This document shows, one piece after another, positions 3,064 through 6,248 of a DNA stretch of 6,248 nt (position 1 is the first letter of the stretch; each line of letters starts with the position of its first letter). Under the pieces are notes generated by a model. It searched no databases. It had not been told where the DNA came from and was given only the letters and a program-made list of their open reading frames with translations. Made by a program: the position numbers and the translations under genes. Source of the DNA: Acidobacteria bacterium AH-259-L09 (GTDB lineage Bacteria > Acidobacteriota > UBA6911 > RPQK01). Location: positions 1 to 6,248 of the forward strand of contig JALLOL010000153.1 of NCBI GenBank assembly GCA_027717875.1, read 5' to 3'.

Positions 3064-3156
3064 ACTCTGCAAGGCGATAGCGAAGCTGGGTGGTAAGCGG
3101 CGAATGGTCCTGGGGCAGGTGTTAAGCATCTGTTCAGACGAGGAAATTACTATCCT
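3064..3156 (+). pseudogene. sugar epimerase copy A, upstream fragment
   Basis: This is a remnant of an NAD-dependent epimerase/dehydratase gene. The frame reads CKAIAKLGGKRRMVLGQV then LSICSDEEITIL. It aligns with VVGAIFELSQKEEAMGQV then FNIGSNEEITIL in copy B at 5989-6083, and 13 bases (3111-3123) are identical between the copies. The match breaks after ATCCT at 3156, at the equivalent of the last codon before ELARKV in copy B. The remainder of this gene resumes at 4301. Nothing of the N-terminal Rossmann half is recognisable upstream. It is not functional. Confidence 0.65.
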
Positions 3157-3157
3157 A

Positions 3158-4300
3158 GGCTCCTCAAGGCCACGAGAAAGTTCACAAAAAGGTCAAAAGG
3201 TATCATGCTGCCATGAGCTGTGTCTCGATGAACTCATCCAGAGTTCGCTCGAAGCGGCGCCAAGCCATCGCCAGAGGGCGGCGCTGAGCCAGTTCATCGG
3301 AGAGTTCGAGATCCAGCGCGGTTAGTCCGGGAGCCGTAGGTTTTCACAAACAAACACGGCTACTCTCCGCCCCAAGGGAGTTAGGAAATAACGTCGCCAG
3401 CGGGAAGCTCTCTGAATGAGTCCTTTGCACCGGAGACGTCGCAGGTCATAGGTCGCCTGTCGGGGCGTGTAAAAAGCCTCCAGCAAAGCACCGACCTGGC
3501 GCACCAGGTCAGCGTTGGTGAATCCTCGAACCAGGTGGCAAAAATCCGCCAGACTAGCCAGAACAGCCATGACCCTCGGGTCGCCGAAGCGAAGTCCTGG
3601 GGCCGATAGACCCTTGTCTGTTTTGGTGGGTCGGCTCACCTGCTCAAAGGTGAGCACATCGGGAGCAGGGTGTGCGTCTGCTGCTTCGGCCTCACACAAT
3701 CGCCGGTTGGCGGTTTCGCCAACTGCCCGAAGGACATTCCAGTTTTTCAGGCAAACGCGGCGCCCAATCCCAAAATCGTGGCTGTCACAGATCACCGTCT
3801 CGGTTCGCAGCGCCCGTCCCTCCTCGAAGTACTGCTTCAGGCGCGAGGATTTGTAGTAACAACTCAGGATGGGATCTGCGTCTCGAGTCAAGACGCGGGT
3901 GCGAAATCTCCCGGGTGTGCGGCGGGTGATTCGCCGATCAAACAGGATGGCCACTTGATGAGGCCGACCCACATCCAGGTGGTCCCGGATTACCCCCACA
4001 TCCGCCCGGCTTGCGGTCGATCAAAGACCTGAGTTTCCGAGACCTCCAGCTGGCGGAAAGCCACCTCATAGACGTAACCGGCCTGCAGATCCGATTGCTC
4101 GAAAGGAGAGGGAAGTCGGTGAAAGCAACGCCAGAACAAGTTTCTTACCGCCCCCGGACCCAGCCCATCGCAGATCTTCTGCAAGGCCTGCTCATCCTCA
4201 CAACTCCGAAAGGCGTTTCCAGTGCCTCAAAGCCGATCCCCGCCTTCTCCAGCTGCCTTCTTGCCCAGTAGTGCGCGGTATGAGGTCGCTCGCTACATCT
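3158..4300 (-). mobile_element. candidate 1.14-kb inserted segment within epimerase copy A
   Basis: Epimerase copy A is collinear with copy B up to 3156 and again from 4301 (GGCTAGAAAAGT, identical to 6090-6101). The foreign material between them is 1143 bp and is almost entirely one minus-strand pseudogene. GGCT occurs at both junctions (3158-3161 and 4301-4304), so a short target duplication is possible. I see no terminal inverted repeats and no known transposase. That this is an element, rather than the product of illegitimate recombination, is inference. Confidence 0.4.
3203..4300 (-). pseudogene. frameshifted member of an unknown-function dispersed family
   Basis: On the minus strand a single protein can be followed through four frames. 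The first reads AHYWARRQLEKAGIGFEALE. After a frameshift near 4208 comes SCEDEQALQKICDGLGPG, then AGYVYEVAFRQLEVSETQVF. After a second near 3998 comes the longest intact stretch (3322-3999), with YYKSSRLKQYFEEGRALRTE, GLRFGDPRVMAVLASL and QATYDLRRLRCKGLIQR. After a third near 3330 comes GLTALDLELSDELAQRRPL, ending LDEFIETQLMAA and TGA at 3203-3205. I remember this layout (KSSxxKQYxKEGRALRTET, TYDLRRLRxxGLI, a C-terminal winged-helix-like part) from a large family of hypothetical proteins in diverse bacteria. Its biochemical function is unknown to me. The relatives I recall are longer at the N-terminus, so this copy is probably 5'-truncated at the epimerase junction as well as frameshifted. Confidence 0.75.
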
Positions 4301-4525
4301 GGCTAGAAAAGTTAAATCATGACCAAGAGCCGTTCCAAGATCCAGCTAATTCCCTATCAGGAAGCCTACGAAGAAGGTTTCGAAGACATGCCGCGGCGTG
4401 TTCCCGATCTCTCCAAGATCAGCCGTCTGGTCGGCTTTCGGCCCAATAAAACCTTGATGGAAATGATTCAAAGCGTGATCGATCAGGAGGGAACCACGAT
4501 GGAACTGGCTAAGCAATCACGCTAA
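4301..4525 (+). pseudogene. sugar epimerase copy A, C-terminal fragment
   Basis: The sequence resumes epimerase copy A at GGCTAGAAAAGT, loses one base before the ATG at 4319, and then reads MTKSRSKIQLIPYQEAY, EEGFEDMPRRVPDLSK and ISRLVGFRPNKTL to a stop at 4523-4525. Over 43 aligned residues, 30 are identical to copy B. This is the substrate-domain C-terminus of NDP-sugar epimerases, with the usual end of GF.P..tL..mi..vi. It is separated from its upstream part by the inserted segment and has a one-base deletion, so it is non-functional as an epimerase. Translation from ATG 4319 would give only a 68-residue fragment. Confidence 0.75.
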
Positions 4526-4854
4526 TAAACGAGAATCTCTCTCAAGGGAACTTTCGAAGTAACCAAATCCTGCGGGATTCCGGGCCCTTGCCGCTCCACG
4601 GCCGACATGATCCGCGAGAAGCAGAGAGTATGCAGCAACCCCGTCTTGTAGGCTCTTCCGTAACCTCGAACCCTCTCCTGAATCACTCGGGCACCCATTT
4701 GTTCTGCGATTTTTGGTGTTTCATCGGTCGAGTCATTATCGACGACGATCACCTCATCGACGAACTCCGGCATCCGGGCCAGTACGTGTTGGATCCCCTC
4801 TTGTTCGTTCAGACAGGGAATCACCACCGTTATCTTCCGATCTCTGTACATCAT
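4522..4854 (-). pseudogene. truncated family 2 glycosyltransferase
   Basis: The start at ATG 4854 or 4851 follows a good GAGG site. The N-terminus is a clear GT-A fold family 2 glycosyltransferase, similar to dolichyl-phosphate mannose synthase-like enzymes of polysaccharide loci. It has ITVVIPCLNEQEGI (residues 8-21), EVIVVDNDSTDET (34-46, nucleotide-binding) and GARVIQERVRGYGRAYKTGL (54-73). At about residue 73 (near 4635) the similarity stops. The next 37 residues (LHTLCFSRIMSAVERQGPGI onward) do not look like this family, and the DxD metal-binding motif expected next is missing. At 110 residues against the usual 230-330 it cannot be active. Its stop overlaps the stop of epimerase copy A, so the two are convergent. 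The tail may be the 3' end of another gene joined by deletion. Confidence 0.7.
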
Positions 4855-4861
4855 TCCGCCT

Positions 4862-4943
4862 CATCCGTGAAGATCCGCTCAAATCCCCGTGATCCGTGTC
4901 AACTGACATCCGCGAAGATCCGTTTAAATCCACGTGATCCGCG
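4862..4943 (-). repeat. two tandem units of the dispersed repeat
   Basis: Units at 4862-4898 and 4907-4943 are each 37 bp with a period of 45 bp, and 32 of 37 positions are identical (CATCCG.GAAGATCCG...AAATCC.CGTGATCCG.G). The reverse complement matches the repeat at 2951-2990. The pair fills the gap between the glycosyltransferase remnant start and the MNT/HEPN promoter, so it may mark a recombination joint. Confidence 0.75.
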
Positions 4944-4960: not shown

Positions 4961-5002
4961 CAATTTGGGATCAGACAAACCCGTTATATTAAAGTGTGCT
5001 CC

Positions 5003-5006
5003 GGAG
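5003..5006 (+). promoter_or_regulatory. ribosome binding site deciding the MNT start
   Basis: GGAG lies 6 bases upstream of ATG 5013. This favours 5013 over the in-frame TTG at 4965, which would overlap the probable transcription start and add 16 residues not typical of the family. Confidence 0.6.
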
Positions 5007-5012
5007 ACTCTC

Positions 5013-5333
5013 ATGGCCGAAAGGCAAATTACTAAACTATTGAACGAGTTACGCACGGGCCTGAAAAAGATCTATGCTGAACGGCTAAGCGGCATATATC
5101 TTTTCGGATCTTATGTTCGTGGAGAACCAGATGACGAATCGGATCTTGACGTCGCGATCGTTCTTGAGGACTTTTATGATTATTGGGAGGAAATTCAACG
5201 AACAAGCCGGTTGATCTCCCAGTTAAGCCTGCATTACGGCATTAGCATATCCCCCGTACGAGTTCGCAAAGCGCAATGGTTTGAGGACGATCCTTTTTTG
5301 AACAATGTTAGAAAAGAGGCTCTTCCGATTTGA
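5013..5333 (+). CDS. MNT-type nucleotidyltransferase (antitoxin-like)
   Basis: This is a 106-residue minimal nucleotidyltransferase of the polymerase beta superfamily. The signature GSYVRGEPDDESDLDVAIVL (residues 32-51) has the GS motif and the metal-binding pair D44 and D46. A C-terminal ISPVRV...DDPFLNNVRKEALPI segment is typical of the subfamily paired with HEPN proteins. That subfamily lacks an obvious third carboxylate in the ISPVRV strand. Homologues in MNT/HEPN pairs act as antitoxins, in studied cases by transferring AMP to the partner HEPN protein; applying this here is inference. The stop codon overlaps the start of the HEPN gene by four bases (TTGA), so the two are translationally coupled. 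The length is full and the frame intact. Base composition is more AT-rich than the neighbouring insertion sequence, which fits a transferred cassette. Confidence 0.9.
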   Translation: MAERQITKLLNELRTGLKKIYAERLSGIYLFGSYVRGEPDDESDLDVAIVLEDFYDYWEEIQRTSRLISQLSLHYGISISPVRVRKAQWFEDDPFLNNVRKEALPI

Positions 5334-5713
5334 AAGAGAAAACGCGAGAGCTGTTCGACAAAGCCAAGCGATCGATCGAAGCAGCACAACTTCTACTCAG
5401 AAATGAGCAGATCGATTTTGCCGCATCGCGCGCCTATTATGCGCTTTTCTATGCCGCTGAAGCCTTGCTTTTCGAAAAAGATCTCGAATTTCGTAAACAC
5501 AGCGGTGTGCATGCCGCTTTTGGCGAGCACTTCGCCAAAAGCGGAGTGATGGATTCCAAGTTTCACGGCTATCTTTTAGACGCGTTTGAGGCCCGATTAG
5601 AAGGAGATTATGGGATCGGCATTGAAATTCGCTCTGAAAAGGTTGCGATTATAATCCAGCGCGCTCAGGAATTTCTTCAAGTGAGCCAAGAACATGTCAG
5701 TTTGATTGACTGA
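5330..5713 (+). CDS. HEPN domain protein (toxin-like partner of MNT)
   Basis: This 127-residue all-helical protein has a HEPN domain across about 2-118. The hallmarks are AASRAYYALFYAAEALL (residues 31-47), FRKHSGVHAAFGEHFAKSG (54-72) and ARLEGDYGIG (88-97). Many HEPN proteins are RNases using an R-x4-6-H motif. Here R55-x5-H61 (RKHSGVH) is a candidate, while the R34 helix carries Y41 where some relatives have H. This places it nearer the HEPN family of SAV_6107/PF05168 type than the DUF86/HepT type, so RNase toxicity is not assured. The start is TTG 5330, overlapping the MNT stop, with GAGG at 5316-5319 ten bases upstream. No other in-frame start preserves the domain. It is cotranscribed with MNT as a toxin-antitoxin-like pair. 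Confidence 0.88.
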   Translation: MKEKTRELFDKAKRSIEAAQLLLRNEQIDFAASRAYYALFYAAEALLFEKDLEFRKHSGVHAAFGEHFAKSGVMDSKFHGYLLDAFEARLEGDYGIGIEIRSEKVAIIIQRAQEFLQVSQEHVSLID

Positions 5714-5757: not shown

Positions 5758-6248
5758 AGTCCTTTAGCGCAGTGCGCTTGCAGCAAGGCTATCGATGAGT
5801 TTCTGGCCCTAGCCTACTGGCGCGAAAAGAAGCTTCCAGTGGTTGTAACGCGCCTGTTCAACACGGTAGGACCTCGTCAGACGGGCCGCTACGGCATGGT
5901 CTTACCGACGTTTGTCAAACAGGCTCTGGTGGGAGATCCCATCACGGTTTTTGGGGATGGAAGCCAGTCCCGCTGTTTTGCCCACGTTCTCGATGTCGTC
6001 GGAGCTATCTTCGAACTTTCCCAAAAGGAGGAAGCAATGGGGCAGGTGTTCAACATCGGTTCGAATGAGGAGATCACCATCCTGGAATTGGCTAGAAAAG
6101 TAAAGGCCATGACCCTCAGCCGATCCGAAATCCAGCTTGTTCCGTACGAGGAAGCCTACGAGGAAGGATTCGAAGACATGCCCCGGCGAGTGCCGGATAT
6201 TTCTCGTATTCAACGGGTGATCGGCTATCAACCGACTTACAGCCTTAA
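5758..6248 (+). pseudogene. sugar epimerase copy B, N-terminally truncated and partial
   Basis: This is the C-terminal half of an NAD-dependent NDP-sugar epimerase (UDP-glucose 4-epimerase-like), which would supply sugars for glycan synthesis. Recognisable sequence runs from CACSKAIDEFLALAYW (5773 on) through TRLFNTVGPRQTGRYGMVLP, VFGDGSQSRCFAHVLDVV, GQVFNIGSNEEITILELA and EEGFEDMPRRVPDISRI, ending GYQPTYSL at the window edge. The frame has a TGA at 5755-5757, so the Rossmann N-terminal half of about 150 residues is absent. Similarity begins right at the catalytic YxxxK motif, where Tyr appears as Cys (CACSK), implying the break lies at this point. The 3' end lies outside the window. It is not functional in its present form unless rescued elsewhere. 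Confidence 0.85.

Follow-up and report, generated by a model that had tools for sequence, protein, structure and literature searches.

Insertion sequences (ISs) of the IS200/IS605 group lack inverted repeats, carry hairpins at their ends and use a short fixed target, with a transposase of about 150 amino acids (aa). IS91/ISCR elements and Helitrons use HUH Y2 enzymes, which have another fold than the one considered here, and Helitrons have a 3' end in CTAG-like sequence. The transposase classes of which we know are DDE, HUH, tyrosine, serine, DEDD and reverse transcriptase. Here we describe a one-gene element, an internally deleted copy of which lies in one of two epimerase gene copies of Acidobacteria bacterium AH-259-L09 (contig JALLOL010000153.1; the 6,248 bp analysed are hereafter called the window). 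We consider it likely that this element and its relatives form a new IS family moved as single-stranded DNA, following IS200/IS605-like logic, by a tyrosine endonuclease predicted to have the fold of the TATA-binding protein (TBP).

The enzymes closest to this prediction are initiators of rolling-circle replication. According to PMC5714925 and PMC13107129, tyrosine nucleases of the Rep_trans and Rep-Arvir kinds nick one strand and stay covalently attached to the 5' end, and PMC13107129 describes DUF7845 (PF25227), the Rep-Arvir family of archaeal viruses and plasmids, as exclusive to archaea.

The insertion in the epimerase gene

The initial annotation of the window proposed that epimerase copy A is collinear with copy B on both sides of a block at 3158-4300. 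The collinearity was borne out: with the copy A flanks joined at CTA, 54 of the first 70 bases are identical to copy B without gaps, gain or loss, and a longer alignment, for which the joint was set one base short, matches at 157 of 207 positions. Direct repeats between the two copies span 3111-3156 on the left and start at 4300/4318 on the right (Table 1). The left boundary of the block was placed correctly, but the right one lies five bases earlier, at 4295, giving an insert of 1138 bp on the minus strand that includes one of the two TAG/CTA copies. It is this CTA, reading TAG on the strand of the element, that is repeated at the two junctions; the GGCT previously suggested as a shared repeat merely occurs nearby. 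Likewise, the precise interruption of a host gene stands as an insertion, but the gene was already broken, with 47 bp of epimerase ahead of the insert and a 1-nt shift behind it.

The block had also been described as holding little except a minus-strand pseudogene of an unannotated family. The pseudogene is present, and residues 196-269, 272-486 and 472-538 of a 538-aa relative (locus L039) align with the window by tblastn in separate stretches, but so are both termini of an element, designated the left end (LE) and right end (RE). Because both are present, the window copy is complete-ended and internally deleted: about 21 nt of LE lead straight to approximately codon 176, the middle having been lost. 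Its closest relative among the 38 loci compared is a longer copy in L009. Judged from these alignments, the insert is best described as a dead, internally deleted copy of an approximately 1.8-kb one-gene element. A LINE-type 5' truncation was dropped as an explanation of this copy once an LE was found at 4278-4295.

That recombination or misassembly simply joined unrelated pieces is hardly credible. The window is a short contig, which leaves room for such an artefact, but neither end and neither TAG is missing, the joined flanks run continuously along copy B, and independent copies stop at the same motifs; a pair of filled and empty sites and the presence of many LE copies in some genomes, both presented below, speak against it as well.

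Table 1. Positions of the insert, its ends and the epimerase copies in the window.
Feature	Position	Strand	Evidence
Epimerase copy A, remnant left of insert	3111..3157	+	46-bp direct repeat with copy B, 80%
Epimerase copy A, remnant right of insert	4296..4525	+	122-bp repeat with copy B, 75%; weak match to epimerase-type models
Epimerase copy B, C-terminal part, leaving the window; collinear with copy A from 6038; paralogous uninterrupted site	5839..6246	+	PF01370 and PF16363 matches
Inserted element, an internally deleted copy	3158..4295	-	Ungapped rejoining of flanks; both termini; 95.9% over 1112 bp to the L009 copy
Target CTA (TAG on element strand) at right (3') end of element	3155..3157	-	Joining of flanks; empty site of a different copy likewise has CTAG
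Target CTA (TAG on element strand) at left (5') end of element	4293..4295	-	Joining of flanks
LE, TAG+CGAGCGACCTCATAC, possible hairpin	4278..4295	-	Relatives have this motif ahead of the gene
RE, TTGACC..GTGAAC-N21-CTAG	3155..3196	-	RE of relatives and of short copies
Pseudogene of the family protein, about codon 176 to stop; frameshifts near 3996 and between 3427 and 3352	3203..4275	-	tblastn, translations

Ends, short derivatives and mobility of the element

Conserved termini, which the initial annotation had suggested seeking among relatives, were found in the subfamily to which the window copy belongs. Upstream of the gene, LE consists of TAG followed by CGAG-n-CCTCATAC; after the stop codon, RE comprises a TTGACC-type sequence, GTGAAC, 18-21 bases and CTAG, beyond which the DNA is unrelated. 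When the 38 loci and the window were searched with the LE pattern stripped of its TAG, a TAG preceded every one of the 18 sites found (15 GTAG, 3 ATAG). LE and RE are paired 1725-1830 bp apart in nine of the 38 loci, and one further pairing, in L006, spans 1996 bp by way of a second LE. A full element of this subfamily measures about 1.73-1.83 kb and is made up of LE, a leader of 110-230 nt, a single gene of about 540 aa and an RE ending in CTAG. Comparison of LE with inverted RE in the nine full copies gave no similarity above chance in any (31-500 of 500 shuffles reach the score); terminal inverted repeats were found in none of the copies tested. Folding of the 30-nt LE gave a hairpin as the top structure for 7 of 15 relatives. 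RE shows a clear hairpin in two groups of short copies, and no covariation overall. Despite having other sequences, CTA+CCGGGGCTGCGCCCC on the left and, in most of the copies compared, ..CTACCTAG on the right (L081 and L097 differ), the ends of the Rhodococcus members follow the same logic.

The absence of inverted repeats and insertion without target loss 3' of a short fixed target (CTAG or GTAG/ATAG) that forms the last bases of RE are features that the element shares with IS200/IS605, and the possible end hairpin would be another. It differs from that group in that its protein, of about 540 aa, has no HUH Y1 match by sequence (42 family members) and in that no TnpB lies between its ends.

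In L003, L006, L007, L009 and others, AACCTC in the leader can pair with GAGGTT in the ribosome-binding region just before the start codon, as if RNA folding controlled translation of the element gene. An intron or other known RNA element was rejected as a candidate, with no Rfam match at gathering thresholds in 10 sources.

In a search of 18 genomes, the LE pattern also proved to occur in large numbers, with 69, 60 and 21 copies in G153, G004 and G002 respectively and 0-2 in each of the remaining 15; it is present at least once in 14 of them all, and a reversed control pattern was found in none of the 18. We surveyed 58 stretches (20, 20 and 18; L170-L227) from the three LE-rich genomes, containing 68 LE sites. 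A pattern search placed an RE within 420 nt of 39 of these sites and none that near at the remaining 29. The short unit in G153 is about 95 bp long, and one unit of about 163 bp in G002 has 39 further matches in that genome, 31 of which begin no more than 10 positions from its RE (the query ends at the LE side). Eight distinct head-to-tail RE-TAG-LE junctions were found, with one TAG in common at each, and G004 contains LE pairs lying back to back, 4 bp apart. LE sites with a nearby RE are short non-autonomous derivatives of the element. In having numerous short hairpin-type copies, some of them in inverted pairs with 4 bp between, and few coding copies, these genomes recall REP/BIME sequences and their TnpA-REP (RAYT) enzymes, but here many short copies have both LE and RE, and the enzyme is not HUH by sequence. 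At 10 of the 68 LE sites the TAG ends an open frame of at least 80 codons, a count made without a chance control; in ending open frames in this way, the element may sit harmlessly at stop codons.

Evidence of movement comes from Rhodococcus, where locus L115 of another genome matches both flanks of the full L075 copy at 88% and 95%. Because these flank matches overlap by three bases within CTAG, the whole L075 element went into CTAG without loss of target. The search for empty sites recommended at the outset thus succeeded in this one strict filled/empty pair, but flank searches found none among 100 genomes of the Variovorax genus, two of the G153 genus and, for the flank part of the query, two of the G002 genus (163 of the 297 query bases are the short element itself). 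In a comparison of L014 with L104, a native CTAG is present at the right flank and the left flank is not clean. A truncated copy in L069 sits in a gene for which pRHL2 of R. jostii RHA1 has a single annotated coding sequence (98.9% over 3592 bp to the junction), and an IS lies on the other side of the copy. By such comparison the element is demonstrably mobile, and its chemistry is what we infer.

The 5' part is missing from the L069, L073, L099 and L102 copies; of these, L069 and L073 retain CTACCTAG at the 3' end, and L099 can be matched as far as that position. These few Rhodococcus copies do look truncated, for which the model proposed here has no explanation. IS701-like ends (..AGTACTA) directly adjoin the element in several Rhodococcus copies (upstream, L077, L080, L095-L098), and both kinds of element may favour CTAG. 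This adjacency would fit an alternative in which the gene is a passenger and another cellular transposase, such as that of IS701, moves the element. We reject it as very improbable: by eye, no IS701-type end is present at the LE flanks of the window, L075, L081, Acidobacteria, Variovorax and other copies, the ends of the element are unlike those of the IS701 type, and no other gene fits between them. Being alone between precise ends, the element gene is the natural candidate for the transposase.

The element protein and its predicted fold

Of 6638 candidates scored against the longest minus-strand frame in the window (225 aa), 4081 are relatives at E <= 0.001, and the longer L039 member has at least 6595 matches at this threshold among 8000 scored candidates. 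None of the 120 relatives listed for the 225-aa frame carries a precomputed Pfam domain, and neither profile scans with pieces from the window and partial members nor a PDB sequence search gave anything convincing. In an alignment of 42 members (A3), no protein matched a transposase, HUH, PF02486 or PF25227 model (Pfam at E <= 10, NCBIfam and PHROGs at E <= 1). Weak matches were obtained to HVO_A0261_N of Pfam in 25 of the 42 (best E 0.0079) and to 10 other Pfam families, to 10 NCBIfam families (best E 0.004) and to 17 PHROGs, including a transcriptional regulator in 22 of the 42 (best E 0.001) and another single match at 8.3e-5; we take these as chance or as reflecting a winged helix. Together with the termini, the filled/empty pair, the short derivatives and the patchy spread described below, the lack of any transposase match in the three profile collections supports the original suggestion of a mobile element that is undescribed and lacks a recognised transposase. 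The element differs from DDE insertion sequences in this respect and in having no inverted repeats. It resembles IS91/ISCR and Helitrons in its predicted tyrosine single-strand enzyme, its lack of inverted repeats and its CTAG-like 3' end, and differs from IS91/ISCR in that the 42 members have no HUH Y2 match by sequence.

All 38 loci are recorded as bacterial and come from Acidobacteria, Terriglobia, Verrucomicrobiota, Chloroflexi, Gemmatimonadetes, Actinomycetes, Mycobacterium, Rhodococcus, Variovorax, Rhizobacter and others. The spread is patchy, with the family present at E <= 1e-20 in 9 of 297 genomes of the phylum of G001 and in 7 of 28 of the Rhodococcus genus (G001 and G010 counted, respectively). 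A phage origin was rejected: there was no family match in phage records, and none of seven stretches in viral_contigs that fit a pattern was confirmed. On a plasmid, two divergent members lie side by side (L071, 3503-6920), the second 26% identical to the L039 protein. Distant relatives, with 24-29% identity and open frames of about 520-560 aa (G002:C39, G004:C695, G011:C100, G209:C208 and others), suggest a wider superfamily.

A predicted model of the approximately 540-aa protein consists of a core and a C-terminal winged-helix domain. Structural alignment matches the core to TATA-binding proteins as well as to three solved rolling-circle initiators of the Rep_trans type, Z scores to the initiators being below 8; with Foldseek by itself, no PDB entry matched at E <= 0.001. 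The best viral match is an unnamed protein, A0A7S5V094 (E 2e-5). HUH folds are not among the fold-match lists, an absence that excludes nothing. Compared by motif, order and conservation with residues given in PMC4797284, the family retains the catalytic pattern of these initiators, as D20, QxE253, KxY327xK and RxE337, with the tyrosine and the acidic residues invariant. The best reading of model and residues is that the enzyme is a Rep_trans-like, TBP-fold tyrosine endonuclease.

Like Rep_trans (PF02486) and the MOBT relaxases (for example RepDE 4CWC and RepSTK1), the protein is predicted to have a TBP-like curved sheet and a strand tyrosine with basic residues at -2/+2 and three acidic residues on separate strands, in the order D, xxD/E, Y, RxE. 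It differs from Rep_trans in lacking the Pfam match and in its longer core, other motif spacing and C-terminal winged helix, and its element, with one gene, conserved ends and an empty site, is not a plasmid, phage or integrative and conjugative element replicon. The likeness to Rep-Arvir, as PMC13107129 presents that family, extends to a TBP-fold domain with a MarR-like winged helix behind it, an invariant tyrosine (KHYYM in Rep-Arvir, KQYFK in the element protein) and a hairpin as cis-acting DNA site, of which the element has a possible counterpart. Here too the Pfam match is lacking, and the element protein is bacterial and transposon-like rather than replicon-like.

Were the Rep_trans likeness to reflect the common TBP fold only, the element could instead move by conventional double-strand cut-and-paste with a 3-bp CTA/TAG duplication and an unrecognised nuclease. 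The 3-bp overlap of the filled/empty pair and the low structural Z scores would agree with this, but we judge it unlikely: none of the nine full copies has terminal inverted repeats, the tyrosine and acidic residues that were matched never vary and do not resemble a DDE set, and the left side has a fixed TAG, the right side mostly CTAG.

Proposed mechanism and significance

In the single-strand mechanism that we favour, Y327 would cut one strand just 3' of the left-flank TAG and of the terminal TAG of RE, with D20, E253 and E337 holding a metal ion during cleavage. The element would exit as single-stranded DNA, probably circularised by strand exchange with an RE-TAG-LE junction, and the donor would be resealed. 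For re-entry, the circle would use a single-stranded target and insert 3' of TAG, often within CTAG; short copies consisting of ends alone would be moved in trans. Re-entry 3' of TAG would leave one TAG per side, no target loss and a fixed orientation; such a reaction, the reverse of excision, would give exactly the products seen. Precise ends, an empty site, end TAGs, many short derivatives and tandem RE-TAG-LE junctions are seen directly in the comparisons. Strand-specific cutting, the nucleophile and the circle are steps that we infer.

The main rival retains the enzyme and the ends but leaves the donor copy in place, through replicative rolling-circle transposition of the IS91/ISCR/Helitron kind. 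This is possible, though we hold it to be distinctly less probable. Relatives of the enzyme initiate rolling-circle replication, according to PMC13107129 and PMC5714925, and the tandem head-to-tail copies, the Rhodococcus copies that have the CTACCTAG end yet no 5' part, and the CTAG-type 3' end would all suit such a process; TAG on both sides and possible hairpins at both ends are, by contrast, IS200/IS605-like, and none of the truncated copies can be paired with an empty site that is clean at its two flanks.

Elsewhere in the window, 340-2675 looks like a complete IS, with perfect inverted ends of 17 bp, a Transposase_29 gene (PF21804, E 7.8e-180) and a separate minus-strand helix-turn-helix gene. 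Overlapping nucleotidyltransferase (PF01909) and HEPN (PF05168) genes at 4965-5713 resemble an MNT/HEPN toxin-antitoxin pair, a truncated family 2 glycosyltransferase gene lies on the minus strand at 4522-4854, and repeats of the type ATCCCGCAGATCACGCGGATT / CATCCGTGAAGATCCGCTCAAATCC occur at 30-50, 2951-2971 and 4862-4941.

A search of the open-licence literature, with ISfinder and bioRxiv outside its range, linked no insertion sequence to a TBP-fold or Rep_trans enzyme. The family is widespread and apparently undescribed, and bacteria may have a kind of transposon that has so far gone unrecognised. On balance we think it probable that TBP-fold tyrosine endonucleases, sister to the Rep_trans/Rep-Arvir initiators, constitute a separate catalytic class of bacterial transposases. 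At CTAG/TAG, such enzymes would mobilise insertion sequences of one gene in single-stranded form, and they would drive large families of short hairpin-ended satellites. If true, this would be a second independent invention of the role that HUH enzymes play in the IS200/IS605, IS91 and RAYT/REP systems; a TBP-fold transposase would add a class, and both unrelated kinds of rolling-circle enzyme would then have given rise to replicons and transposons. It would also provide a compact enzyme whose target is short and fixed and whose end sequences are defined, and would account for a very large set of 'hypothetical proteins' (at least 6595 matches) and for the abundant short repeats beside them.
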